From: an uncultured Ignavibacteriota bacterium
Lineage (GTDB): Bacteria > Bacteroidota > Ignavibacteria > Palsa-1295
Reading direction: 5' to 3'
Assembly: GCA_903900335.1 (NCBI GenBank)
Contig: CAIUMP010000044.1
Span: 162,686 to 226,685 of the forward strand
DNA: 64,000 bases
In this document: positions 1 to 49,668 of the stretch, one piece after another
Numbering within the stretch: the stretch's first letter is position 1
Layout of the letters: every line of letters starts with the position of its first letter
Translations under genes and position numbers: made by a program
The notes under the pieces: model-generated
What the model saw: the letters and a program-made list of their open reading frames with translations, nothing else
The model's database searches: none
Told to the model about the DNA's origin: nothing

Positions 1-1339
1 TAAGTTTAACTGCCTCTTCGAACGGTTCGATTGCTTTTGCATATTGACTAGTAAGAAGGTACAGATATCCCAATGTAAAGTGACTCATGTAATTGTCAGG
101 AGCGTTCCGAATGAACTCTTTCGCAGTCAATTCAGCCAACTCGATTTTGTTCTCCAACTGATATATGGAGGTTAGGGCAATGTACCCATCCATATTGTTC
201 TCGTTAAGACGAAATCCCGCCTCAATCAAGCGCTTGGCATCTTCAAGCAGTTGAATATCCCTCTTATAACTACGATACAGACCAACCTGGGCATTCGAAA
301 TATAAAAATACGGTGTTATGAAGTGTGGGTCAAGTAACATTGCCTCACGAAATAGTTGGATTGCGAATTCGAAACCTTCTTTTGTTTGTTTTAGAAAATA
401 CTTCTCTCCCTTTAGTTCTAACTCATACGCCTCCGCATTCTCCGTACCCCGTTTCTTCACCAGCGTCTTCTCCTCATTCGTCAAATGCAGCTTCAACCCC
501 TCAACCACCTTCTCCGCAACCGCTTCCTGAATATCGAAAATATCCTTGAACTCGCCACGGTGGGATTCCTGCCAGAGATAATCGCCCGTCTCGATGTCGA
601 GCAGTGAGACCGATATTTTTATCTGCTCGCCAAACTTGCGGACGGAGCCTTCGATGAAATAGCGGGTGTTGAATTCTTTGCCGATCTCGACTGTCTGCAG
701 CTTCGCGCCGCGCAAGCCGATGGAGGTCTTCCGGTCCAAGATTCGCAGCGATTTAATGTGACCGAAAGCGTCGATGAGTTCACCGGCGAGTCCATCGGCG
801 AACCAGGCGTTGTCTTCGCCAGATGGGGAGAGGTCTTCGAAGGGGAGGACGATGAGGGATTTGCGGGTGTCAGACGCGGAGTCGGGCAGGGATGCCCGAC
901 CTACACGAGGGTCGGTGCGTAGGTCTGTGCTTCCAGCCCGACCTTCCCCGACAGCAACGCCGAGCTTCACAAGAGAGCGCACAATGCCGTCGAAATCCGC
1001 GAGGTGTGCCCGCTGGATTCCGGCAAGCTGATACTGCATCTCATGCGGAATGATGAAGTCAGTGCCAACTGAGATGGGCAGGATGCGTTTCTTCTTTTCA
1101 AACGCGAGAGAAAGCTCTCGCACGACATTATCGGATTGCACCGAATCCTTCGAAAGCAAGACGATGAGTGCCGATGAAGCCTCTATCGCGCGGACGATCT
1201 CTCCGGACCAGCTTGTCGCGGCCTCTATTCCGCCCTGGTCTATCCAAATCTCCATACCGGATGCGCGCAGCCGTTCCGCCAGCTCTAACGCGTGCTCGGT
1301 GTCTTTGCGGGAATAGGAAATAAAGATGTCTGTTGCCAT
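1..1339 (-). CDS. TIR / FlgO(TolB-N)-like / TPR protein, 3' end cut by window edge
   Basis: The frame is open from an ATG at 1339 to the left edge, about 446 codons, with no stop seen. Residues 1 to about 120 form a TIR_2-type domain: it opens MATDIFISYSRKDTEHA, then has WIDQGGIEAATSWSGEI and a hydrophobic LIVLLS strand. After a repeat-derived linker comes an FlgO/TolB-amino-terminal-like domain (VLPFEDLSPSGEDNAWFADG ... YFIEGSVRKFG ... GDYLWQE ... FDIQE). TPR helices follow, with YAKAIEPFEEAVKL at the edge. The same architecture recurs at 21581-23335. TIR domains may act as NADases or as protein-interaction modules; nothing here decides which. The gene is divergent from miaB. The start is chosen because the TIR domain begins directly at this Met. 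The function is inferred to be cytoplasmic signalling or defence. Confidence 0.85.
   Translation of the reverse strand, partial: MATDIFISYSRKDTEHALELAERLRASGMEIWIDQGGIEAATSWSGEIVRAIEASSALIVLLSKDSVQSDNVVRELSLAFEKKKRILPISVGTDFIIPHEMQYQLAGIQRAHLADFDGIVRSLVKLGVAVGEGRAGSTDLRTDPRVGRASLPDSASDTRKSLIVLPFEDLSPSGEDNAWFADGLAGELIDAFGHIKSLRILDRKTSIGLRGAKLQTVEIGKEFNTRYFIEGSVRKFGEQIKISVSLLDIETGDYLWQESHRGEFKDIFDIQEAVAEKVVEGLKLHLTNEEKTLVKKRGTENAEAYELELKGEKYFLKQTKEGFEFAIQLFREAMLLDPHFITPYFYISNAQVGLYRSYKRDIQLLEDAKRLIEAGFRLNENNMDGYIALTSIYQLENKIELAELTAKEFIRNAPDNYMSHFTLGYLYLLTSQYAKAIEPFEEAVKL
881..943. repeat. GTCGGGC palindromic repeat inside the TIR gene
   Basis: A perfect short hairpin (GTCGGGCAGGGATGCCCGAC, 881-900, then CTAC) is followed by a degraded partner (GTCGGTGCGTAGGTC...CCCGACC). 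The same unit occurs in intergenic DNA at 48310, 48675 and 49403. Here it lies in frame, encoding a low-complexity linker between the TIR and FlgO-like domains, and the reading frame stays open on both sides. Confidence 0.75.
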
Positions 1340-1345
1340 GACAGG

Positions 1346-1377
1346 GACAATCGTGTGTTCTGTAACACGCGATTGTC
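1346..1377. promoter_or_regulatory. Inverted repeat in the divergent TIR/miaB intergenic region
   Basis: GACAATCGTGTGTTC is followed by a near-perfect inverted copy ending CGATTGTC, flanked by ACAGG and CCTGT. It starts 7 bp upstream of the TIR start codon, within the 122-bp divergent intergenic region. It could be an operator acting on the TIR gene or another dispersed palindrome; no second copy was noticed. Confidence 0.4.
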
Positions 1378-1461
1378 CGTCCTGTTCCACCCACACAATC
1401 CAACCGGTCCAGGGAGAACGGACAGGAACCCGACCAATGCTCCCCTGCTTTACTCGTTAAC

Positions 1462-3111
1462 ATGAAAAAGGTCTATATCGAAACATACGGTTGCCAGATG
1501 AATGTCGCCGACACGGAGGTCGTCCTTTCCGTGCTTAACAAGGCTGGCTACGCACCCACGACCGAGCTTGAGGGGGCAGATCTCGCGTTTATGAATACCT
1601 GCGCCATCCGCGAGAATGCGGAGGAAAAAGTGTGGAAGCGATTAAGCCATTGGAAGAACCTTAAGAAGCGGAATCCCAACGCTGTGATCGGCGTCCTCGG
1701 CTGCATGGCGGAGCATTTGCGGAAGGATTTGCTCAAGGACTCAGGGACAATCGTGGATTTGATCGTTGGGCCGGATGAGTATCGCAGGATTCCCTCATTA
1801 GTTGAATCTCTCGCTGGTGGCAGTGCAAGCGGGGTCAAGCGATCCAGTGTGGATTACGAGGAATCAGGGCCACAGATTGCAGTGAAGCTCTCCCGAACCG
1901 AAACCTACGACGACATCCTCCCCTTCCGTTCGGAAGGCATCAGCGCATTCATTTCTGTTATGCGAGGATGTGATAAGTTCTGCACGTTTTGCGTCGTGCC
2001 ATTCACTCGCGGGCGAGAGCGTTCGCGGAGTCTGCAATCTATTGTAGATGAGTGTAAGGAGTTGGAGCAGCAGGGATTTCGGGAGATAACGTTGCTGGGG
2101 CAGAATGTGAACTCCTACCGGGATTCTGCCTCTCCCCTACCCCCTCTCCCGCTGGGAGAGGGGAATTGGCCTGCCTCTCCCCTAACCCCTCTCCCGTTGG
2201 GAGAGGGGAACAACTCCCCCTCTCCCAACGGGAGAGGGGGCTGGGGGGAGAGGCAGCCCCCCATCGCCGATTTCTCCGACCTCCTCGCTGCCTGCGCGCG
2301 TGCCGTCCCTGCCGTGCGCATCCGCTACACGACAAGCCACCCGCAGGACTTCGACCAGAAGCTGGTCGATACAATGGCGACGCACGATAATATTTGTAAG
2401 TACATTCACTTGCCGATTCAGTCCGGCTCCGACCGCGTGCTGAAGCTGATGAATCGCACATACACGCGCGCCCACTACATGTCGATCATCGAGATGATCG
2501 ACCGCGCAATGCCACAGGCGGCGCTATCGACGGACATCATCGTCGGGTTCTGCACGGAGACGCTGGAAGATCACGAGATGACGAAGCAGGTCATGCGCGA
2601 AGTGGAGTACGAGGGCGCGTATATGTTCAACTACTCGCCGCGACCCAACACCCGCGCCTGGAACACCCTCGCCGACGATGTGCCGGACGAAGAGAAGACC
2701 CGCCGCTTGCAGGAGATCATCGCGCTGCAAAACGAGATCGCCGCGCGGAAGAACTTAGCCGAGATCGGCACGGAGCACACCGTGCTCGTCGAAGGCCGCT
2801 CGAAAAAAGACGCGACCGAATGGAAAGGCCGCACCGATACGAACAAGATGGTCATCTTCCCGCGGATGGATGCCGAGGTCGGCGAGCACCGCCGCGTGCG
2901 CATCAACCGCTCGAACAGCGCCACCCTCTTCGGAGAACTATTAGACTCCCCCACCTCGGTACGAGGAGGGGGCTGGGGGGTGGAAACCGCCAGCCACAAC
3001 CGCGGCGACGTGCTGTACGATCTCTCCCCGCTCGTGATTTCGACTGTTAACTCTAACGAGCAAAGCGGCCTCCAACAACCGATGGCAATCGAACTGCCTG
3101 TCCACTCATGA
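1462..3111 (+). CDS. miaB: tRNA-2-methylthio-N6-dimethylallyladenosine synthase MiaB
   Basis: A radical-SAM methylthiotransferase that modifies A37 of tRNAs reading UNN codons. The UPF0004 N-terminal domain carries three cluster cysteines (YGCQMN, Cys11; NTCAIRENA, Cys47; LGCMAE, Cys81). The radical SAM cluster is GCDKFCTFC (Cys170, 174, 177), followed by TRGRERSR, LLGQNVNSY, and a C-terminal TRAM domain (VLVEGRSKKD ... GRTDTNKMVIFP). At 549 residues it is about 100 longer than usual. The extra length comes largely from two in-frame palindromic repeat insertions: residues about 222-267, between LLGQNVNSYRD and FSDLLAACA, and a shorter one after LFGELL in the TRAM region, followed by a nonconserved tail. 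All catalytic residues are kept. The stop overlaps the next gene's start (ATGA). The family assignment is secure; activity despite the insertions is inferred. Confidence 0.96.
   Translation: MKKVYIETYGCQMNVADTEVVLSVLNKAGYAPTTELEGADLAFMNTCAIRENAEEKVWKRLSHWKNLKKRNPNAVIGVLGCMAEHLRKDLLKDSGTIVDLIVGPDEYRRIPSLVESLAGGSASGVKRSSVDYEESGPQIAVKLSRTETYDDILPFRSEGISAFISVMRGCDKFCTFCVVPFTRGRERSRSLQSIVDECKELEQQGFREITLLGQNVNSYRDSASPLPPLPLGEGNWPASPLTPLPLGEGNNSPSPNGRGGWGERQPPIADFSDLLAACARAVPAVRIRYTTSHPQDFDQKLVDTMATHDNICKYIHLPIQSGSDRVLKLMNRTYTRAHYMSIIEMIDRAMPQAALSTDIIVGFCTETLEDHEMTKQVMREVEYEGAYMFNYSPRPNTRAWNTLADDVPDEEKTRRLQEIIALQNEIAARKNLAEIGTEHTVLVEGRSKKDATEWKGRTDTNKMVIFPRMDAEVGEHRRVRINRSNSATLFGELLDSPTSVRGGGWGVETASHNRGDVLYDLSPLVISTVNSNEQSGLQQPMAIELPVHS
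2129..2254. repeat. CTCTCCC...GGGAGAG palindromic repeat cluster inside miaB
   Basis: Two direct copies of a unit around CCCTCTCCCGTTGGGAGAGG are followed by one inverted copy (CCCTCTCCCAACGGGAGAGG plus GGCTGGGGGGAGAGG). The whole block is in frame with miaB and encodes a Pro/Gly/Leu-rich insert. Related units lie at 2946-2983 and 40244-40467. Confidence 0.85.
2946..2983. repeat. Second palindromic repeat inside miaB (TRAM region)
   Basis: CTCCCCCACCTCGGTACGAG followed by GAGGGGGCTGGGGGGTGG is a relative of the cluster at 2129-2254. It is again in frame and encodes a Gly-rich stretch right after the conserved TLFGELL of the TRAM domain. Confidence 0.65.
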
Positions 3112-7132: not shown

Positions 7133-7328
7133 GCTCCGTTAGGAGGGGCATATTTGTAGCCCAGGGTGTAGCGAGCTTGCGAGCGGAACCCTGGGTGGGA
7201 TGTGCGTTTGCAATTTCGAGTGCTGAAAGGACCGCGCACCCCGCCGCGAAGGTGTACATCGCCCTTGTCAGGGCTGTTGATTTCGGTGGTGATCCCGTCC
7301 CCAGGGTTCCGCTACGCTCCACCCTGGA
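7133..7328. repeat. REP-like inverted pair related to the RAYT element ends
   Basis: GCTCCGTTAGGAGGGGCATA then TTTGTAGCCCAGGG resembles the left end of the RAYT element at 45206 (GCTCCGTTAGGAGCGATATA then TTTGTAGCCC). The unit CCCAGGGTGTAGCG...ACCCTGGG (7160-7196) is matched by an inverted partner CCCCAGGGTTCCGCTACG...CACCCTGG (7300-7326), giving a REPIN-like arrangement. A relative of the right half lies at 48251. Confidence 0.65.
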
Positions 7329-7434
7329 CTGTGGGTACATAATGGCTCCGCCACTGGGGCACCCTTTGTCGCGTAGGCCGGTGCCTGCGGCCCGACACAC
7401 CCGGGAAATATTCTCAAAAAATAATCGGAAGCCG

Positions 7435-7463
7435 TTGACTTTGGGATTTGAATGTGTTATGTT
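7435..7463 (+). promoter_or_regulatory. Sigma70-like promoter of the duplicated element, copy 1
   Basis: TTGACT (7435-7440), a 17-bp spacer and TATGTT (7458-7463). Hexamers and spacing are identical in copy 2 (49461-49489), although the spacers differ at several bases, which is why this is read as a promoter. Confidence 0.5.
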
Positions 7464-7643
7464 GTTTGCTATGTGATGGGCACCTTTTCAATTCGGCACA
7501 CATCCTCCGGGGAGCTGGATTTCCGCCTCCGATCAGGTCGAGGGCAGGTTATCCGCGGGAATGATAGAATGGGGAGGGAGTTCATTAAATGAACACTCAA
7601 TTGAGAGAATAGGGGCACCCGTTTTCAAGAAAACGGGTGCCCC
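7464..7643 (+). ncRNA. Candidate small RNA or MITE-like element, copy 1
   Basis: This segment is shared with 49490-49665. Its parts in order are GGGCACC-TTTTCAATT, GGAGCTGGATT, ATCCGCGGGAATGA, and a highly conserved 3' half with TTCATTAAATGAA and CTCAATTGAG palindromes. It ends in a perfect 15-bp hairpin (GGGGCACCCGTTTTC and its complement, 7612-7643). The hairpin lacks a U tract in this copy. A mini-ORF ATG to TAG (MNTQLRE) is conserved in both copies. The element could be an RNA gene, a non-autonomous mobile element or a regulatory repeat. Confidence 0.4.
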
Positions 7644-18223: not shown

Positions 18224-18392
18224 GAGATGTAAAAGCAATGAATTGTCCGTAAGGTAACCCCCCAGCCCCCGGAAAGATGCAATGAAGTTTCGGTAATCCA
18301 GTCAATTCCTCTCTATTTCGCCAACCGAAAATCCCAATCGCGTACTAAACCAAGTACCGATTTCCCGCCGCCGCCTCCCATTTTTGTATCCA

Positions 18393-18464
18393 GAGTTTAA
18401 CAAACTCCCCGTGTAGCCCAGACTTTAGTCTGGGTGCGCAGACTAAAGTCCGCACTACACGGGG
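18393..18464 (+). promoter_or_regulatory. Shared 5' region with palindromes, propeller copy 1
   Basis: A 15-bp palindrome GAGTTTAACAAACTC (18393-18407) is followed at once by a nested hairpin (CCCCGTGTAG...CTACACGGGG enclosing CCCAGACTTTAGTCTGGG). Essentially the same block lies at 35329-35401 before the paralogous gene. The first palindrome could be an operator; the hairpin belongs to the TGTAGCCC repeat family. Confidence 0.55.
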
Positions 18465-18496
18465 GATCATCGGAATACAAAAACACAACTACGACC

Positions 18497-19495
18497 ATGA
18501 AACAGCTACTTTCTCGCCGCCTCGGATCATTTCTCCTCGCGGCTTCGCTTTTTTCACTCGCAGCCTGCCAGCAGGATCCGCAATCGGCGAATGTGCCGCA
18601 AACCATGCGACCACTCAAGGCCAGCACACCGCCGGCCAATCCGGCCATCGCGTATTGCTCCTCCACCACCGCAATCGGCGTCATGGACACCACCGGAGCA
18701 AATGCGACAACACTCGTTAGCGTGACGAGCGGCACGCTGACCAGTCCAAGCTGGAATTACTCTGGCGGTTCTATCGCTTATTCGGATGCCGTGAGCAATA
18801 CCTATGCAATCAAGGCAGTCGATGTGAGCGTGAATTCGAAAGGGGCGCCAGTCGCCAGCAATGCGCGGACGATCTACTCACTCGCAGCGAGTGACTCGAC
18901 CAGAATCCAAAGCGGACCAGCCTGGTGCGCAACATCGGCCACTGGCGCAATTGCCTTCACACGGCTTCACACCGACAAAGCGAATTTCGGCACGACTGAT
19001 CTTTGCACCATCTCGCAATCCGGTGGAACACCGACGGTGCTCGCTTCTTTCAAGAAACTGAGTTCGACGGGTGCGGCGTTGGGGCTGTACAATTCGCCCA
19101 CGTGGAGCCCGGATGACTCGAAGATCGCTGTCCTCCGAACAGACACCACGAATCATGTAACGATCATGATCTTCAACGCATCGACGGGCGCTGCAGTGGA
19201 TTCGATTCCGATCTCCGGCGCGGCGCGCAATCTCGAATGGTCGCGCACCGGAATGAACGAACTCGCGTATTCGTATTTCACCGGTTCTTCGTATGTGCTG
19301 TCGTATGTCGCGGCCTCGACTGGCTCGACGCCAACGACGAATTCCGTCGCGGGCACATTCCCGACCTGGTCGCCGAATAACAGCGGCATCCTCTTCCTCC
19401 CCGCCTCCGGCGCGGACTTAAAGCTCGTACCGTTCACGACGACCACATCGTCAGTGGGATCGGCGGCGTTCTCGTATTTGAATTGGAAGCGGTAA
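18497..19495 (+). CDS. TolB-like beta-propeller lipoprotein, copy 1
   Basis: 332 residues from ATG 18497. MKQLLSRRLGSFLLAASLFS LAAC gives a lipobox (LAAC) followed by QQDPQ. The rest is built of PD40/WD40-like blades with repeated SPSWN..GG.IAY, TWSPDDSKIAVLRTD, LEWSRTGMNELAYS and PTWSPNNSGILFLP motifs. It is likely a periplasm- or surface-facing lipid-anchored propeller. The 345-residue paralog is at 35432-36469, and each is followed by a TPR-HTH gene, suggesting a sensor-regulator pair. Ligand unknown. Confidence 0.82.
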   Translation: MKQLLSRRLGSFLLAASLFSLAACQQDPQSANVPQTMRPLKASTPPANPAIAYCSSTTAIGVMDTTGANATTLVSVTSGTLTSPSWNYSGGSIAYSDAVSNTYAIKAVDVSVNSKGAPVASNARTIYSLAASDSTRIQSGPAWCATSATGAIAFTRLHTDKANFGTTDLCTISQSGGTPTVLASFKKLSSTGAALGLYNSPTWSPDDSKIAVLRTDTTNHVTIMIFNASTGAAVDSIPISGAARNLEWSRTGMNELAYSYFTGSSYVLSYVAASTGSTPTTNSVAGTFPTWSPNNSGILFLPASGADLKLVPFTTTTSSVGSAAFSYLNWKR

Positions 19496-19566
19496 TGTGT
19501 GAAGCTGCCTCATGCCTATCAGGTATTAGCCCGGTAGGCATGTGCCGGTTATTTTGAGAGGATGCC

Positions 19567-21498
19567 ATGGAAAATCAAAAGTCGGTTATAGAAGTCAATA
19601 TTGCAACCTTACTTGGGGAAGCTGAAGAGCATCTTAAACGAACCGAATACGCAGAGGCGGGGAACTCTGCTAAACGTGCGCTCAACGCGCTAGCTGCAGA
19701 TGAGGGTCATGAAACCAGTGTTGCTGACAAGGCGCATGCTCTTTTCATTATAGGCGCGGCCTTGGAGGGAGTTGGAAGCTATCAAGATTCCCTCGAACAG
19801 TGTTCCAACGCTCTGTTCCTTGCAGAGTCCGCTTCGAATTTGGCACTTCAATCGAGAATCCTGTGCGAAATCGCGTTAGTTCGAAGCCTCCAGGGAGACT
19901 CTACGACCGGTCTTACAACCGCAGCGAAGGCTCTTAACCTGGCTGAGATGGCAGATAACAAAGAGCTCGAGGCGCGGTGCTACATTACGATGGGGAATGC
20001 CTGTATCAATCTCGCCGATTATACGACCTCGTTGAAATATAACGAGCACGCTCTTGCAATTTATGCTGAATTCAAGAATGAGCGAGGCCGTATGATAGCT
20101 CTTAATAATATCGGGAGTGACTATCATTACCTTGGTAATTACGTGTTGTCTTTGCAGCATCAATCTCAGGCAGTTACAATCGCTGAAGAGATTGGAGCAT
20201 CGGTTGATTTAGCAAGATTTCGCTGCAATATTGCCACTATTTATAAGGTGCTTGGCGACTATACGCGAGCTATTGAGATTTATGATAGTGCCCTCGCGGG
20301 TGCTAAAGAAGCAGCCAACCCAAGAGTTATCGGCCTCATTTTATCCAACTTGGGATGCTTCTATTCTGAAATGGGAGATTTCCATCGTTCATTGGGTTAT
20401 CATTTCCAGTCCCTAGCACTACACGAAAAGACCTTCGAGAAAACAGCGATCCCTACTGACTTAAATGGTATCGGCGTTACATATTTCAATCTCAGAGAAT
20501 TTCCCAAGGCGCTCGAATACGCGGAGCGTGGTCTTAATACCAGCCAACAGATCGGGGATTTGAGGGGAGTGAGAGTGGCATTGTCGACTAAGGCTGGGAT
20601 TCTTTACGAACTGGGCGATCTTGAAGGCGCCTACTACGGGTATCTCGCATCTCTGAAGCATGGCCGTGAAATTCTGAATACCCAGGAAGATGTTGCCCTT
20701 GATCTATTCAATCTGGCCTGTATTCTTGAGCGACAAGGCGAATTCGAGGAGGCAATTGTGCGATGCGAGGAAGCCCTTGAGCTTGCGACCGAATTGTGCG
20801 ATAAATTTGTGATAGTCGCGGCGCGCAAGCAAATGGCAGTCTTGTTCGAAAAAAAGGGCGACATTGTAAAGGCCCATCAGCACTTGAAACAATTTCTCGA
20901 ACTTGAGAAAGAATTGAACAGCGAAGAATCCAAAAAGAAGGTTGAAGCGTTCAACTTGCGCGTAGCCATCGCGGACAAAGAACGCGATGCCGAGCTTGCC
21001 CGCTTACGCGCCGAGCAATCCGAAGCCGCCCTCCGCCTCAAAGAGCGCGACCTCGCCAACACCGCATCCTCGCTCGCGGCACAGACGGAGCTGCTCGGTA
21101 ATTTTCGGGCGGATCTTCGGAAGATCGTGCTGCGTCCTGACCGCTATGAGCCGGAGGACATCATCCGTCAAGTTAAAGCGAAGCTGAAAGAGCTACCCTG
21201 CGAGATGATAGACTTCTCCAAGTTCGAGGGACAGTTCGCCACGGTGCATCCGGAGTTTCGCGCGCGTCTTGAAACAACATACCCGGAGCTTACTCCGCAA
21301 GAGGTGAAGATGTGTATGCTCATTCATGTGAACCTTCAATCCGCCGCCATAGCGCGATTGATGTGTCTCTCAGAGCGCAGTGTGGAAGGACACCGACTGA
21401 ATATTCGGAAGAAGTTTGGGTTGACGAAAGAGCAGACGCTGGCGGAGGCGCTGCGGAAGATAGATGGAGGTGGGGAAAAGATGAAAGATGAGCGATGA
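19567..21498 (+). CDS. TPR protein with coiled coil and C-terminal LuxR-like HTH
   Basis: 643 residues from ATG 19567, with GAGAGGA upstream. Residues about 1-450 are TPR units (for example NNIGSDYHYLGNYVLSLQHQ and LGCFYSEMGDFHRSLGYHFQ). About 450-510 is a charged coiled coil (RDAELARLRAEQSEAALRLK). The last ~130 residues end in a helix-turn-helix-like segment (LTPQEVKMCMLIHVNLQSAA IARLMCLSERSVEGHRLNIR KKFGL) reminiscent of LuxR/GerE recognition domains. No membrane segment. Paralogs are at 36530 and 50144. It probably regulates transcription in response to a partner bound by the TPRs. Confidence 0.8.
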   Translation: MENQKSVIEVNIATLLGEAEEHLKRTEYAEAGNSAKRALNALAADEGHETSVADKAHALFIIGAALEGVGSYQDSLEQCSNALFLAESASNLALQSRILCEIALVRSLQGDSTTGLTTAAKALNLAEMADNKELEARCYITMGNACINLADYTTSLKYNEHALAIYAEFKNERGRMIALNNIGSDYHYLGNYVLSLQHQSQAVTIAEEIGASVDLARFRCNIATIYKVLGDYTRAIEIYDSALAGAKEAANPRVIGLILSNLGCFYSEMGDFHRSLGYHFQSLALHEKTFEKTAIPTDLNGIGVTYFNLREFPKALEYAERGLNTSQQIGDLRGVRVALSTKAGILYELGDLEGAYYGYLASLKHGREILNTQEDVALDLFNLACILERQGEFEEAIVRCEEALELATELCDKFVIVAARKQMAVLFEKKGDIVKAHQHLKQFLELEKELNSEESKKKVEAFNLRVAIADKERDAELARLRAEQSEAALRLKERDLANTASSLAAQTELLGNFRADLRKIVLRPDRYEPEDIIRQVKAKLKELPCEMIDFSKFEGQFATVHPEFRARLETTYPELTPQEVKMCMLIHVNLQSAAIARLMCLSERSVEGHRLNIRKKFGLTKEQTLAEALRKIDGGGEKMKDER

Positions 21499-35157: not shown

Positions 35158-35328
35158 AAAGAGGTCCTGAGTCGTGTGTGTTAATACGCCATTACGAGCC
35201 GTGGCTTTGGCCCGCGGAAGCGATCCGTGGTGAAGGAACGCCCCGCCGAAGGAAAGGTCCTCGAAATCCCAAACCCCGTATTTTTCTCCGTATCGGTTTT
35301 CGAGGGTCGCCCCGTAGCTTTGTATTCA

Positions 35329-35401
35329 GAGTTTAACAAACTCCCCGTGTAGCCCAGACTTTAGGCTGGGGGTCGCAGACTAAAGTCTGCGCTACACGGG
35401 G
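35329..35401 (+). promoter_or_regulatory. Shared 5' region with palindromes, propeller copy 2
   Basis: The same GAGTTTAACAAACTC palindrome (35329-35343) and CCCCGTGTAG...CTACACGGGG nested hairpin as at 18393-18464. The following GGATCATCGGAATACAAAAA and the first codons of the gene are also nearly identical to copy 1. Confidence 0.55.
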
Positions 35402-35431
35402 GATCATCGGAATACAAAAACAACTACGACC

Positions 35432-36469
35432 ATGAAACAGCTACTTTCTCGCCGCCTGGGAGGATTTCTCCTCGCGGCTTCGCTTTCTTCTCTCGCAGCC
35501 GCCCTTGGCGGATGCCAGCAGGATCCGCAATCGGTGAACAACTCGCTGGGCGGGCGACCGTTCGCCGCGAGCACTCCACCCGCACACCCCGCTGTTACGT
35601 ATGGCACATCCTCGACCGCAATCGGAGTGATGGATTCGGACGGCACCCACCAGACAAGCATCCTAACAGTTAGCGGCACCGAGACCGTCGGTACGCCGAC
35701 GTGGTCACCAAGTGGTGGATCGATCGCCTATCAGGATGCCGCCGGCGGAACCTCGTACGTGAACTCCGTCAAAGCAATGGACATTTCCGTGAACGCGAAG
35801 GGAGTGCCTGTTTCCAGCAATGTTCGCAGCATTTATTCTACGCAGAATTCTGATACCGCTTTCATTGTTGATCCCTCATGGTGTTCGGTTTCGACGACCG
35901 CGAAGATCGCCTTCATTCGCAGATTCGGCGGAACTGGATGGGGCAGCCCGAATCTCGGACTCGCGCAGCTGTGCGTCGTTTCGCAGTCCGGCGGCACGCC
36001 GACGGTGCTCGCTTCATACAAGAAGTTGGCGACGCAAGGCAACGGCAATCCGTTAGTCATCAGCCACTATACATGGCCGACGTGGAGTCCGGACGATTCG
36101 AAGATCGCCGTTGTCCGTGAGGACACAATCGGTCACAACACCATCATGATCTATGATGCCTCGACGGGCGCGGCAGTGGATAGCATCGCCGTCGCATCCA
36201 ACATCAACAACCTGGGGTGGTCGCGCACAGGAACGAACGAACTCGTCTTCTCCGGCGCATCCGGCTACATCTACTACTGCACTCCGACAACCGGCTCGAC
36301 ACCTACGACGAATTCCGTCGCAGGTAATTACCCGACTTGGTCACCGAGCAATAGCAGCGTGATGTACGTCAACTCGTCGCTCGCGCTGATGAAGCTGCAA
36401 TCTCATTCTTCATCCACGAGTTCGCTGCAAACCGGATTTGGGGGGTCGGCGTTGAATTGGAAGAGATAG
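35432..36469 (+). CDS. TolB-like beta-propeller lipoprotein, copy 2
   Basis: 345 residues. The signal MKQLLSRRLGGFLLAASLSS with lipobox LGGC and QQDPQSV matches copy 1 almost exactly; the blades are more diverged (TWSPSGGSIAYQD, TWPTWSPDDSKIAVVREDT, LGWSRTGTNELVFSG, YPTWSPSNSSVMYV). Predicted lipid-anchored propeller. It stands directly before a TPR-HTH gene, as copy 1 does, implying duplication of the two-gene module. Confidence 0.82.
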   Translation: MKQLLSRRLGGFLLAASLSSLAAALGGCQQDPQSVNNSLGGRPFAASTPPAHPAVTYGTSSTAIGVMDSDGTHQTSILTVSGTETVGTPTWSPSGGSIAYQDAAGGTSYVNSVKAMDISVNAKGVPVSSNVRSIYSTQNSDTAFIVDPSWCSVSTTAKIAFIRRFGGTGWGSPNLGLAQLCVVSQSGGTPTVLASYKKLATQGNGNPLVISHYTWPTWSPDDSKIAVVREDTIGHNTIMIYDASTGAAVDSIAVASNINNLGWSRTGTNELVFSGASGYIYYCTPTTGSTPTTNSVAGNYPTWSPSNSSVMYVNSSLALMKLQSHSSSTSSLQTGFGGSALNWKR

Positions 36470-36529
36470 TGATTTCGCCCTCCTTCACTACAAAACGGGG
36501 TGGTGGAGGAGCGCTGAGAATTGACATCT

Positions 36530-38296
36530 ATGAAAACAAACGAGATTCCTTTCGTCCCAGCGGAGCTTGCAAGGGCCGAGCAGTTGTCCAACGAAGGCAA
36601 GTACTCTCAGGCCGCGGCGGTCGTGAAAGCAGTGTTTGCACGGCCGGATCGCAATGTCAAACTTTCGAGCGATGGGGAGGCCTTTGGACATATACTGCTT
36701 GGCGTATGTTGTGTTGTGGCATCCGAAACAGCGCAGGCGCTGATGCACTTCAATCTGGCTCACCAGTTGGCGGTAGCAACCGCAAATCTGTCCTTGCAAT
36801 CGCGGGCATTGAGTTCGAGGGCGAAATTGTATGGCATTGTCGGCAACTACGAGGGAATGATTGCCGACGCAGAGCAAGCCTTGTCCTCTGCAAGAATTGC
36901 GAATGATAGAATAATGGAGGCGAGAGCGATAGAGGGTCTCGGATATGCCTCCCGGCTTCTTGGAGAATTGACCAGAGCGTTGGAGTATTACAAACTTGGC
37001 CTCGAGTTAGGAGTTGAAAAACATTATGTTCGGGGCGTTCTTCACCAAGGGCGCGGATACGTCAGTATGCGGCTTGGAGACTACCCACAGGCTCTAGAAC
37101 ATCTTTGGAATGCACTCCTGCTTGCGGAAGAAATGGGATGGAAACCTCTTCAACAAGGCTGTATCGCAGGTTTGGGTTCGGTGTATCACGCTATCGGAGA
37201 CTACACCCGCGCGGTGGAATACAAAACACACGCGCTGGCCCTGATCGAGGAGCTTGGCGATAGGGCAGAAAGCGTGATTTTGCGTACCAATCTTGGCAAT
37301 ACGTACTGCCTGATGGGCGACTATTCTCATGCGCTTCTTCACTATAGACAAGCGCTCGAAGAAAGTCATCAAATCGTTACACCAAGGTCGGTGGGCTACC
37401 TCTTGCACGGCATCGCGGTGGCTGAGTCGAGGTTGGGAAATATTGATGTCGCAGAGCGAGGCCTGTTGGCGGCACTGCAACATCGTCGCACCGTGCTGAA
37501 GTCAAACGATGGGGTCAATGAAACGCTGGTTGAGCTTGGTAAGGTGCTGCTGGCCCAGGGCAAGATTGAAGAAGGCATCAGCCTCCTCAAGGAAGGACTT
37601 AGCTTGTCAGATCAGGTAGGCGACAGAGATTCGGCCTCGTATGCTCACGGGGCCTTAGCGGATGCCTTTGCCAAAACTGGTAGCGTCAGCGAGGAGGTTG
37701 CCCATCTGCGAAGCTACCATATGCTCCGCGAAGCGATCATGGGAGTCAACACCCGGAGGCAGATCGACACCTTCAATATCCGCGTAGCCATTGCAGACAA
37801 AGAGCGCGATGCAAAGCTCGCACGATTGGAGAAAGAGCAAGCCGAAGCCGCCCTTCGCCTCAAAGAACGCGACCTCGCCAACACCGCATCCTCGCTCGCG
37901 GCGCAGACGGAGCTGCTCGGGAATTTCCGGGCGGATTTGCGAAAGATCGTGCTGCGTCCCGACCGCTATGAGCCGGAGGACATCCTCCGCCAGGTAAAGG
38001 CAAAGCTGAAAGAGTTGCCGCGCGAGATGATCGACTTCTCCAAGTTCGAAGGACAGTTCGCTACCGTGCACCCGGAGTTTCGCGCGAAGCTTGAGACGAA
38101 ATATCCGGAGCTTACTCCGCAAGAAGTGAAGATGTGCATGCTCATTCATGTCAATCTTCAGACGGCAGCGATTGCACGATTGATGTGCATCTCGGAGCGC
38201 ACCGTCGAAGACCACCGCGCGAACGTCCGCAAGAAGATGAGTCTGCAGCGATCGGACGATCTCGCGAAGCATCTGCGGGGGATAGATGCGAAGTAG
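36530..38296 (+). CDS. TPR protein with coiled coil and C-terminal LuxR-like HTH, paralog
   Basis: 588 residues from ATG 36530. An in-frame TTG at 36521 has a better-spaced GGAGGAG (9 nt) and may be the real start. TPR units (LGELTRALEYYKLGLELGV, LGDYPQALEHLWNALLLAEE, MGDYSHALLHYRQALEESHQ) lead to the same coiled coil and C-terminal block as the 19567 gene (LTPQEVKMCMLIHVNLQTAA IARLMCISERTVEDHRANVR KKM). In 129 aligned bases of that block (37856-37984 against 21034-21162) I count 8 differences, all synonymous. The TPR part is much more diverged. Confidence 0.8.
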   Translation: MKTNEIPFVPAELARAEQLSNEGKYSQAAAVVKAVFARPDRNVKLSSDGEAFGHILLGVCCVVASETAQALMHFNLAHQLAVATANLSLQSRALSSRAKLYGIVGNYEGMIADAEQALSSARIANDRIMEARAIEGLGYASRLLGELTRALEYYKLGLELGVEKHYVRGVLHQGRGYVSMRLGDYPQALEHLWNALLLAEEMGWKPLQQGCIAGLGSVYHAIGDYTRAVEYKTHALALIEELGDRAESVILRTNLGNTYCLMGDYSHALLHYRQALEESHQIVTPRSVGYLLHGIAVAESRLGNIDVAERGLLAALQHRRTVLKSNDGVNETLVELGKVLLAQGKIEEGISLLKEGLSLSDQVGDRDSASYAHGALADAFAKTGSVSEEVAHLRSYHMLREAIMGVNTRRQIDTFNIRVAIADKERDAKLARLEKEQAEAALRLKERDLANTASSLAAQTELLGNFRADLRKIVLRPDRYEPEDILRQVKAKLKELPREMIDFSKFEGQFATVHPEFRAKLETKYPELTPQEVKMCMLIHVNLQTAAIARLMCISERTVEDHRANVRKKMSLQRSDDLAKHLRGIDAK

Positions 38297-39442: not shown

Positions 39443-40501
39443 TTACAGCCTCACCGCGATGAGATTCCCCGACTCGTACTTCTGCATTGCAAAACGGAAG
39501 AAGGTGATAGCAATTGTGAGGCTCACCACTGCGGCAACCGCCAACCCCCCAAGCCCCGTCCATTCGAATCGCGTGACGAGATCGTGTGGGATCGTCGCCG
39601 TGAAGAAAGCGGGGATGATGAAGATCATCACCACGCGGATTCCTCCGGTGAAGATATTCTGCGGATAGAACGAGAAGCCGAGCAGCAGCTCGAAAATATC
39701 ACGCGCCGCATCCTCGATGTTCGCCACATAAAAAGCAAGGCTCTGCGTAATGACAATGAAGCTGAACATTACACATGATGCCAGCACCGATGTGCCGAAA
39801 AAGAGCACTGTCGTTTCTAGCGTCACTGGAGTGAACGCAAAAAACATGACCAGCCCAAAGATGAGATCGCCGATGGCATCAATGCGCGTTTTTGAAACCG
39901 AGACATGCCAGAGCAAATCGACGGGGAATGCAAGATAGTAATCAAGCTCTCCCTGCCGAATCGTTCGGGCGAGATCCGTCGCGCCTTTCGCGAAGACGAA
40001 GACGATGCCGAAGGTGAACGTGGTGATCGCCGTGAGCAGCGCCGTGTCTGTCCATCCCCAGCCGTTGACATTCTTGAAGCTCTGGAAAAAAATATACCAC
40101 AGCACCGTGAATGCCGCATCGTTGACGATCATGCCGACGACCTGCATCAGGAAGCTCGTGCGGTACTCCATCGCCGAGAGAATGTTCGAGCGGGTGAAGT
40201 AGAGGGTGAGCTTCATACGGGAGAAGAGATGCCGTAGCAGTCCTGCCTCTCCCCCAACCCCCTCTCCCGCTGGGAGAGGGGGCTTTGGTGCGACACTTCT
40301 TTCTCCCCCATCTCCCGGCGGGACAAGTGACTCCGATGCGACAGCTCTCGCTCCCCCGTCTCCCAGCGGGAGAAGGGGGCCGGGGGGAAGCGGCAGACCC
40401 ATTCGCGAGGTGTCGGGAGCTGCCTCTCCCCCCAGCCCCCCTCTCCCGTTGGGAGAGGGGGGCTTTGGATTCTGCTTTTTATCCTCCGTTGAGTTCCACA
40501 T
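39443..40501 (-). CDS. ABC-2 family exporter permease (second permease)
   Basis: 352 codons if started at ATG 40501, which overlaps the previous stop and has AAGGAG 6 nt upstream. Alternatively ATG 40216 gives a 257-residue protein beginning MKLTLYFTRSNILSAMEYR, the normal family start. The region between the two starts is made of CTCTCCC palindromic repeats but stays in frame. The body has six hydrophobic segments (FLMQVVGMIVNDAAFTVLWY, LISFGLVMFFAF-like and others) typical of the ABC2_membrane_6/COG3694 type. It pairs with the permease at 40479-41282 and the ATPase at 44100-45122. Confidence 0.83.
   Translation of the reverse strand: MWNSTEDKKQNPKPPSPNGRGGLGGEAAPDTSRMGLPLPPGPLLPLGDGGARAVASESLVPPGDGGERSVAPKPPLPAGEGVGGEAGLLRHLFSRMKLTLYFTRSNILSAMEYRTSFLMQVVGMIVNDAAFTVLWYIFFQSFKNVNGWGWTDTALLTAITTFTFGIVFVFAKGATDLARTIRQGELDYYLAFPVDLLWHVSVSKTRIDAIGDLIFGLVMFFAFTPVTLETTVLFFGTSVLASCVMFSFIVITQSLAFYVANIEDAARDIFELLLGFSFYPQNIFTGGIRVVMIFIIPAFFTATIPHDLVTRFEWTGLGGLAVAAVVSLTIAITFFRFAMQKYESGNLIAVRL
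40244..40467. repeat. CTCTCCC palindromic repeat cluster at the permease 5' end
   Basis: Four units of the miaB-type repeat (for example CCCTCTCCCGCTGGGAGAGG at 40260 and CCCTCTCCCGTTGGGAGAGG at 40439), with more diverged copies at 40301-40325 and 40350-40388. They lie between the ATG at 40501 and the ATG at 40216 of the same frame. Confidence 0.82.
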
Positions 40502-45199: not shown

Positions 45200-45870
45200 G
45201 CACCCCGCTCCGTTAGGAGCGATATATTTGTAGCCCCCGGTGTCAACCGGGGGCAAACGAAGGCAAAACAATCAATGAGCTCCGTAGGAGCGCCATATTC
45301 CCCACTCCCAATGGCAAACACATACACCCAAATCTACGTCCACTTGATCTTCGCCGTTAAACACCGCGCGAGTCTTATCCCTCGCGAGCACAAAGCCGAG
45401 CTTCAGAAATACATCACCGGCGCGATCACGAATCAGAAGAGCAAGCTCATTGCGATTGAAAACGAACCCGATCACATTCACATTTTGATCGGCCTGCGCC
45501 CCGACACTTCGCTCTCCAATCTCGTGCGCGACATCAAGGCAAATTCTTCTCGATGGATGAACGAACAGGAATGGATGAAATTTGAATTTCGATGGCAAGA
45601 GGGATTCGGAGCCTTCTCCTATTCACGTTCACAATTGAGCGATGTCATCGCGTACATTCGAAACCAGGAGGAGCATCACAAGAAGCGAACGTTCATGGAG
45701 GAATACATTGCACTCCTCGAAGCGTTTGGAATCGAGTACGATCCGAGATACATCTTTCAACCCCTTGAATAATATGCCGCTCCTACGGAGCTATGCGTTC
45801 TCCTCACTCCCCCAACCCCCGGTTAACACCGGGGGCTACAAATATTTCGCTCCTACGGAGCGGGGTGCGA
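45200..45870. mobile_element. RAYT element with nested inverted REP ends
   Basis: The left end (45200-45254: CGCACCCCGCTCCGTTAGGA G, TTTGTAGCCCCCGG, CCGGGGGC) and right end (45817-45870: CCCCCGG, CCGGGGGCTACAAATA, TCGCTCCTACGGAGCGGGGT GCG) are inverted copies. A second, inner pair of GCTCC(GTA)GGAGC palindromes lies at about 45278 and 45779. The enclosed gene is an IS200-like transposase. This is the structure of a REP-associated tyrosine transposase unit. Confidence 0.8.
45311..45772 (+). CDS. REP-associated tyrosine transposase (IS200/TnpA REP type)
   Basis: 153 residues from ATG 45311; the longer frame from 45128 reads through the REP end and is not used. It is a Y1 HUH endonuclease: MANTYTQIYVHLIFAVKHR, HUH motif DHIHILIG (His55, His57), nucleophile Tyr115 in VIAYIRNQEEHHKKR. 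Enclosed by inverted REP-like palindromes, the typical arrangement for a domesticated RAYT that acts on REP sequences. Complete, with no frameshift, so probably active or recently active. Confidence 0.92.
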   Translation: MANTYTQIYVHLIFAVKHRASLIPREHKAELQKYITGAITNQKSKLIAIENEPDHIHILIGLRPDTSLSNLVRDIKANSSRWMNEQEWMKFEFRWQEGFGAFSYSRSQLSDVIAYIRNQEEHHKKRTFMEEYIALLEAFGIEYDPRYIFQPLE

Positions 45871-48249: not shown

Positions 48250-48329
48250 GGGTTATGCTTCGCTCCACCCCTGGCTGTGGGTATACTGCTTGCCTCCGGC
48301 ACTGGGGAAGTCGGGCAAGGATGCCCGAC
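48250..48329. repeat. REP-like repeats (CCAGGGTT and GTCGGGC families)
   Basis: CCAGGGTTATGCTTCGCTCC ACCCCTGGCTGTGGGTA is closely related to 7302-7340. It is followed by GTCGGGCAAGGATGCCCGAC (48310-48329), a copy of the unit inside the TIR gene at 881. Confidence 0.65.
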
Positions 48330-48674: not shown

Positions 48675-48698
48675 GTCGGGCAGGGATGCCCGACCTAC
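48675..48698. repeat. GTCGGGC palindromic repeat
   Basis: GTCGGGCAGGGATGCCCGAC CTAC, identical in core to 881-904. It sits at the 5' edge of the minus-strand gene ending at 48406 and 49 bp before the antitoxin start. Confidence 0.75.
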
Positions 48699-49402: not shown

Positions 49403-49426
49403 GTCGGGGAGGGATGCCCGACCTAC
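49403..49426. repeat. GTCGGG palindromic repeat
   Basis: GTCGGGGAGGGATGCCCGAC CTAC, a one-base variant of the repeat at 881. It stands 35 bp before the promoter of duplicated-element copy 2. Confidence 0.7.
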
Positions 49427-49460
49427 GCGAGAATTAATCTCAAAAAAATTCGGGAAGATC

Positions 49461-49489
49461 TTGACTTCGGGTCTTGGATGTGTTATGTT
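49461..49489 (+). promoter_or_regulatory. Sigma70-like promoter of the duplicated element, copy 2
   Basis: TTGACT (49461-49466), 17-bp spacer, TATGTT (49484-49489); hexamers and spacing as in copy 1 at 7435-7463. Confidence 0.5.
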
Positions 49490-49668
49490 GTTGGGTATGT
49501 TATGGGCACCCGTTTTCAATTGGCAGTATCTCTCCTGCGGAGCTGGATTCCCTCTGCGGATCATGCCGTGGGCAGCTATCCGCGGGAATGACGGTGAGGA
49601 GAGGGTGTTCATTAAATGAACACTCAATTGAGAGAATAGGGGCACCCGTTTTCAAGAAAACGGTTTCT
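49490..49668 (+). ncRNA. Candidate small RNA or MITE-like element, copy 2
   Basis: Matches copy 1 (7464-7643), best in the 3' part where TTCATTAAATGAA, CTCAATTGAG and GGGGCACCCGTTTTCAAGAA AACGG are the same. Here the right arm of the terminal hairpin stops after AACGG and runs into TTTCTT, which makes it more terminator-like. The 5' part is more diverged but keeps GGGCACC-TTTTCAATT, GGAGCTGGATT and ATCCGCGGGAATGA. Confidence 0.4.

Follow-up and report, generated by a model that had tools for sequence, protein, structure and literature searches.

The stretch of DNA analysed here (the window, 64,000 nucleotides, G000:C44:162686-226685) raises the question of how palindromic repeats come to lie within protein-coding genes while the reading frames stay open, and whether a mobile palindrome can in this way add new peptide segments to proteins, as a sequence-only reading of the window had proposed. 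The window belongs to a 4.0-Mb genome in 62 contigs (G000), and the closest named relative on MiaB is a Candidatus Kapaibacterium MAG.

Repeat families in the window and its genome

All repeats named in the sequence-only reading are present at their positions, but three families (A, A2 and B) were counted instead of two. The relevant features, with the evidence for each in brackets, are the following.

2-1396, minus strand: TIR-TPR protein with a FlgO-like middle and a family B insert in the linker (ORF; Pfam TIR_2, TPR)
881-904, minus strand: GTAG-tagged repeat of family B (CTAC at 901-904), lying in frame within the TIR/FlgO-TPR linker (sequence)
919-943, plus strand: second GTAG repeat, degenerate (GTAGGTCTGTGCTTCCAGCCCGACC), tail to tail with the first (read from sequence)
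1462-3111, plus strand: miaB, tRNA methylthiotransferase, carrying inserts (Pfam UPF0004, Radical_SAM, TRAM; one match at E<=1e-90 in the genome)
2125-2268, plus strand: site-1 in-frame insert of 48 residues, SASPLPPLPLGEG...RQPPIA (absent from relatives; pLDDT <50 over 230-262)
2126-2170, minus strand: family A palindrome, copy 1 in MiaB site 1 (repeat search, alignment)
2171-2215, minus strand: family A palindrome, copy 2 in MiaB site 1 (repeat search, alignment)
2216-2260, plus strand: family A palindrome, copy 3 in MiaB site 1, inverted relative to copies 1-2 (inverted-repeat search, alignment)
2946-2983, plus strand: degenerate palindrome of the A2 type with tail GGGGGGTGG, forming the C-terminal insert of MiaB at residues 496-510 (repeat search, relatives)
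40244-40467, minus strand: four palindromes of the A type, some of them degenerate, upstream of an ABC-2 permease (repeat search, Pfam)
45214-45855, plus strand: Y1 transposase of RAYT type (45323-45667) between inverted palindromes of another family, 45214-45253 and 45816-45855 (inverted-repeat search)
48310-48329, no strand assigned: family B copy, not within any convincing gene (repeat search)
48675-48694, minus strand: GTAG-tagged intergenic copy of family B (repeat search)
49403-49422, no strand assigned: family B copy with 1 mismatch, intergenic (repeat search)

A search of the genome found families A and B far above reversed-pattern controls. The family A core CTCTCCCNNNGGGAGAG occurs at 38 places in the 4.0 Mb (<=2 mismatches) versus 4 for its reversed control, and family B GTCGGGCANGGATGCCCGAC at 31 places versus 0. 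Exact copies of A2 number 58 in the sister genome G003, 1 in G000 and 0 in G005, with controls at 0. The consensus sequences are AAAGCCCCCTCTCCCARCGGGAGAGGGGGTTGGGGGGAGAGGCAG for family A, CCCCCTCC..GGAGGGGG followed by a spacer and GGGGGTGG for A2, and GCGTAGGTCGGGCATCCCTGCCCGAC for family B; the elements of the families examined measure 26-45 nt. A, A2 and a counterpart in Prevotella, a gut bacterium and distant relative, have a common architecture, consisting of a C-rich/G-rich stem-loop, a spacer of 2-3 nt and a GGGGGAGAG or GGGGGTGG tail.

Several assignments had to be revised. The insert at 2946-2983 is of the A2 type and not, like 2129-2254, of the A type. The repeat at 881-943 is located in the TIR/FlgO linker as described, but consists of two repeats tail to tail and not of one palindrome. 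The copies at 48675 and 49403 are indeed intergenic, and the one at 48310 lies outside any convincing gene. Family A is present in three copies at MiaB site 1 and in four upstream of the permease. The permease copies had been placed at the 5' end of the protein; they are present, but probably form a 5' leader and not protein, because they are located upstream of both the Pfam ABC2_membrane_6 match (permease residues 131-345) and a plausible start (MKLTLYF...).

Some further repeats were observed. TIR-TPR paralogues carry different palindrome families in the same linker (881-943 in the window, L046 near 1501 in G000 and L312 near 2866 in G003). A segmental duplication of roughly 3 kb (18326-21312 and 35262-38134) is flanked by GCAGACTAAAGTCTGC palindromes. 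A stretch of about 250 bp, found at 7390-7636 and 49416-49663, contains, at a fixed distance from each other, the motifs TTGACTT and TATGTTGTT, and is perhaps a shared promoter and leader.

Inserts in MiaB

The miaB frame is open through both inserts, and the UPF0004, radical SAM and TRAM domains were all detected, in agreement with the sequence-only reading. For comparison we used MiaB of the six other members of the genus and of six genomes from the remaining genera of the family (G007-G012). In the alignment, about 40 residues of the site-1 insert are missing in G007-G012 and also in the genus members G004 and G005. MiaB of the six genomes outside the genus has no extra segments, and within the genus such segments occur in G000, G003, G006, G002 and G001, at up to five sites. 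Most of them are palindromic in the DNA, yet their sequence differs between the members of the genus. Site 1 contains A-type palindromes in G000 and G003, site 2 contains A2-type palindromes in G003, G006 and G002, site 3 of G006 contains two unrelated palindromes, and several palindromes were found at the C terminus among genus members. The inserts at site 1 of G006 and at residues ~121-136 of G000 are not palindromic. Counting stems of at least 7 bp, hairpin stems cover 25.8% of the insert nucleotides versus 1.06% of the remaining miaB sequence of the same six genomes; the Fisher test applied to these data treated nucleotides as independent.

Divergence between miaB of G000 and G003 is 0.17/0.14/0.50 at the three codon positions, and the gene is therefore under purifying selection. 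A structure model of the window MiaB resembles solved MiaB structures (7mjy among them, at 0.93) with TM scores of 0.93-0.95 by target length. Mapped onto this model, the site-1 insert forms a disordered loop with pLDDT <50 over residues 230-262, and the C-terminal insert lies within a longer low-confidence tail (residues 497-549).

The same loop was compared in 71 MiaB sequences from other Bacteroidota in which it was readable. Most site-1 loops are 7-14 residues long, and four MiaB from Prevotella or Alloprevotella have loops of 31-50 residues. Two of these four long loops (L103 and L097, both from Prevotella MAGs) consist of palindromic repeats built on the same stem-spacer-tail plan. The same insert in MiaB of unrelated phyla, which would have spoken against the sequence-only reading, was not encountered in these comparisons; the Prevotella palindromes are different ones at the same loop, which points to repeated independent insertion. 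The loops of L143 (Alloprevotella) and L153 (Prevotella) comprise 50 and 37 residues; that of L153 contains a LNTQHSK-type repeat peptide with an inverted-repeat fold and no C/G-rich palindrome.

Intragenic copies in other genes

In G003, 28 of 48 sampled A2 copies are located in long ORFs, some of which may be spurious. In a frame test of 49 copies, which required no ORF and aligned the proteins of relatives to each flank separately, all 13 copies for which one and the same relative protein aligned to both flanks preserve the reading frame; without a frame effect one third would be expected, and three of the 13 copies belong to one gene. According to Pfam or orthologue alignment, A2 hosts in G003 include TruA, transketolase, PGK, PNP, CoaBC, KBL, RsmH, NadA, HutI and a DHH protein, and MnmE of this genome carries three tandem A2 units. 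Many copies are located within or between conserved Pfam domains, and alignment identified orthologues of the G003 host proteins without the insert. Family B or A inserts are present in MetRS and a HemN/HemW-like enzyme of G000, and Pfam domains span or flank inserts in GatA, CoaBC and a tRNA/rRNA uracil methyltransferase of G004 and in RarA of G002. The net gain in length per insert is 1 to 47 residues and often below the length of the element; therefore some target sequence was lost or replaced, on or after insertion. In one G003 locus (L293:2070-2954) a single open frame encodes both DUF559 and RNase HI, joined at an A2 palindrome; the element may have fused two genes here.

A scan of 124 orthologue pairs between G000 and G007, based on about 1.26 Mb from G000 and 0.65 Mb from G007, revealed few palindromic insertions besides MiaB. 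The burden of G000 is therefore low, and the effect becomes visible only via G003. In the Prevotella genome of L103 (G149) the repeat was found 49 times, frequently in the form of inverted dimers; of 42 copies, 28 are located in long ORFs. Some of these may be shadow frames; GltB (three copies), GltD, RecG and DnaG are backed by Pfam.

The consensus sequences of A, A2, B and the Prevotella element leave 5-6 of the six frames open, and among the A2 copies all five open frames are in use. Families with 3-4 open frames are seldom intragenic (1/17, 1/14 and 1/11 copies). The 5-6 open frames make A and A2 suited to survival inside genes, and stop-poverty would be the reason why these families are intragenic, as far as a small comparison across different genomes suggests. 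A member of the same class (G147, L368-L378) has 312 matches to the family A stem pattern; its version leaves four of six frames open, and one of 14 sampled copies lies in a long ORF.

Origin of the inserts and relation to known elements

Copy number is lineage-specific, the copies lie in frame in many core genes, relatives are without them, and miaB is under purifying selection. Very probably, these inserts go back to selfish REP-like palindromes that insert widely and persist in genes only in frame and in tolerant loops. According to this model, short, non-autonomous repeats would amplify separately in each lineage; genic copies would persist only if the frame is kept, no stop codon is introduced and the loop or linker tolerates extra residues, and would then be translated as disordered segments rich in Gly, Pro and Arg.

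An adaptive role, with the hairpin RNA or the peptide tuning how strongly enzymes of translation and tRNA modification are expressed or how active they are, is unlikely. Enzymes acting on tRNA, rRNA and translation do recur in the raw host list (MiaB, MnmE, TruA, RsmH, GatA, MetRS and the uracil methyltransferase), and tRNA and DNA-repair genes are also among the hosts reported by Di Nocera 2013 (PMC3733652). However, PGK, transketolase, PNP, GltB, HutI and TIR-TPR proteins are hosts as well, same-genus orthologues exist without inserts, and since all open frames are used no peptide is favoured. Still less probable is that the palindromes are not mobile but arose locally, in tolerant loops, through template switching and hairpin-directed repair. 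Some MiaB palindromes with other sequences (GGGCGGCGGGGTCGCCGCCC, GCAGGCGTCCCGCCTGC) and sites showing replacement more than gain would fit this explanation, but A2 occupies 48 places in G003 with near-identical cores and a fixed non-palindromic tail, with controls at zero, and local origin would not give one sequence. That collapsed repeats, binning errors or spurious ORFs created the pattern is hardly credible: the genomes are drafts in many contigs, the estimated contamination of G003 is 7% and some ORFs over repeats (L302, L307, L004) have no Pfam match, but the pattern is common to at least five independently assembled genomes, the host proteins mostly share 54-92% identity with relatives on either flank of the insert, and the insert positions are mid-contig.

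For the selfish REP-like palindromes, copying and insertion are indicated by lineage-specific bursts, in which nearly identical units that share a fixed asymmetric tail occupy scattered positions. The genus encodes 5-11 Y1 transposases per genome. Neither A nor A2 was found within 1.5 kb of the 23 Y1-transposase loci in the genus. A tagged family B copy is present within 1.5 kb of one of the six G000 loci and within about 3 kb of three. Family B would be a GTAG-type REP, a kind of element that RAYT Y1 transposases move; in other bacteria these enzymes recognise the GTAG tag (PMC3733652). GTAG is present at one end in 9 of the 20 oriented copies listed, and the 7-bp stem and 6-nt loop fit the limits of GTAG REPs (stem 5-13 bp, loop 2-20). 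The transposase unit at 45214-45855 is REPtron-like, with nearly perfect palindromes whose family also occurs at 7133-7169. The genome collections contained no empty site from a near-identical strain that would define element ends and target duplications. The in-frame inserts in functional genes, which relatives are without, support the idea of a mobile palindrome that adds new peptide segments; we infer that the elements are mobile, that an enzyme moves A and A2, that the genic copies are translated and that the inserts are neutral.

Palindromes in frame in Rickettsia genes and intragenic REPs are already known, and by analogy the present case would work like both. Rickettsia palindromic elements are located in frame in functional genes that are unrelated to one another, and when first reported almost half of the copies were intragenic (review PMC10969869). 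The likeness to them noted in the sequence-only reading holds for this mode of insertion; a relation in sequence was judged by tags and architecture only. The present elements are set apart by their length (26-45 bp versus ~150 bp) and by their occurrence in Bacteroidota and not Alphaproteobacteria. In contrast to the conserved peptide of the Rickettsia elements, they encode no single peptide, and every open frame is used. Di Nocera 2013 (PMC3733652) described GTAG/CGTC-tagged REPs inside ORFs of several species, including tRNA-modification genes and tRNA synthetases. Like these, the present repeats are short stem-loops, single, dimeric or grouped, within ORFs; unlike these, they are found at the same MiaB loop in two different classes of bacteria. 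Neither a GTAG nor a CGTC tag was found at the consensus ends of A and A2, so that by tag these would not be members of either family; together with the Prevotella family they differ from both by the tag-less spacer plus GGGGGAGAG/GGGGGTGG tail. Enterobacterial RU (PMC2759123) are MITE-like non-autonomous repeats of 103-168 bp that carry ORFs and are found inside genes, whereas the present elements are single hairpins with a tail. In nematomorph mitochondria (PMC6649704) inverted repeats within translated genes encode conserved residues in both arms and are maintained; here, in contrast, palindromes are added to variable loops and are missing in relatives. For palindromic repeats in Kapabacteria no relevant paper was found in the literature searched.

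We lean slightly towards the view that A, A2 and the Prevotella elements represent a third, tag-less and stop-poor REP-like superfamily in Bacteroidota, with the stem-spacer-tail architecture described above, that continually feeds in-frame insertions into loops of core enzymes, and that one MiaB loop is a hot spot reached convergently in Kapaibacteria and Prevotella.

Protein-coding palindromes are thus not peculiar to Rickettsia. In some Bacteroidota, over half of the copies of a repeat family are located inside long open frames, many of them in genes of core enzymes. Odd Gly/Pro-rich loops in predicted proteins (LPLGEG, PPPFQGGGGGW) can be repeat-derived, which should serve as a warning, and paired enzymes with and without the insert in related species offer a natural test of selfish DNA feeding protein segments.
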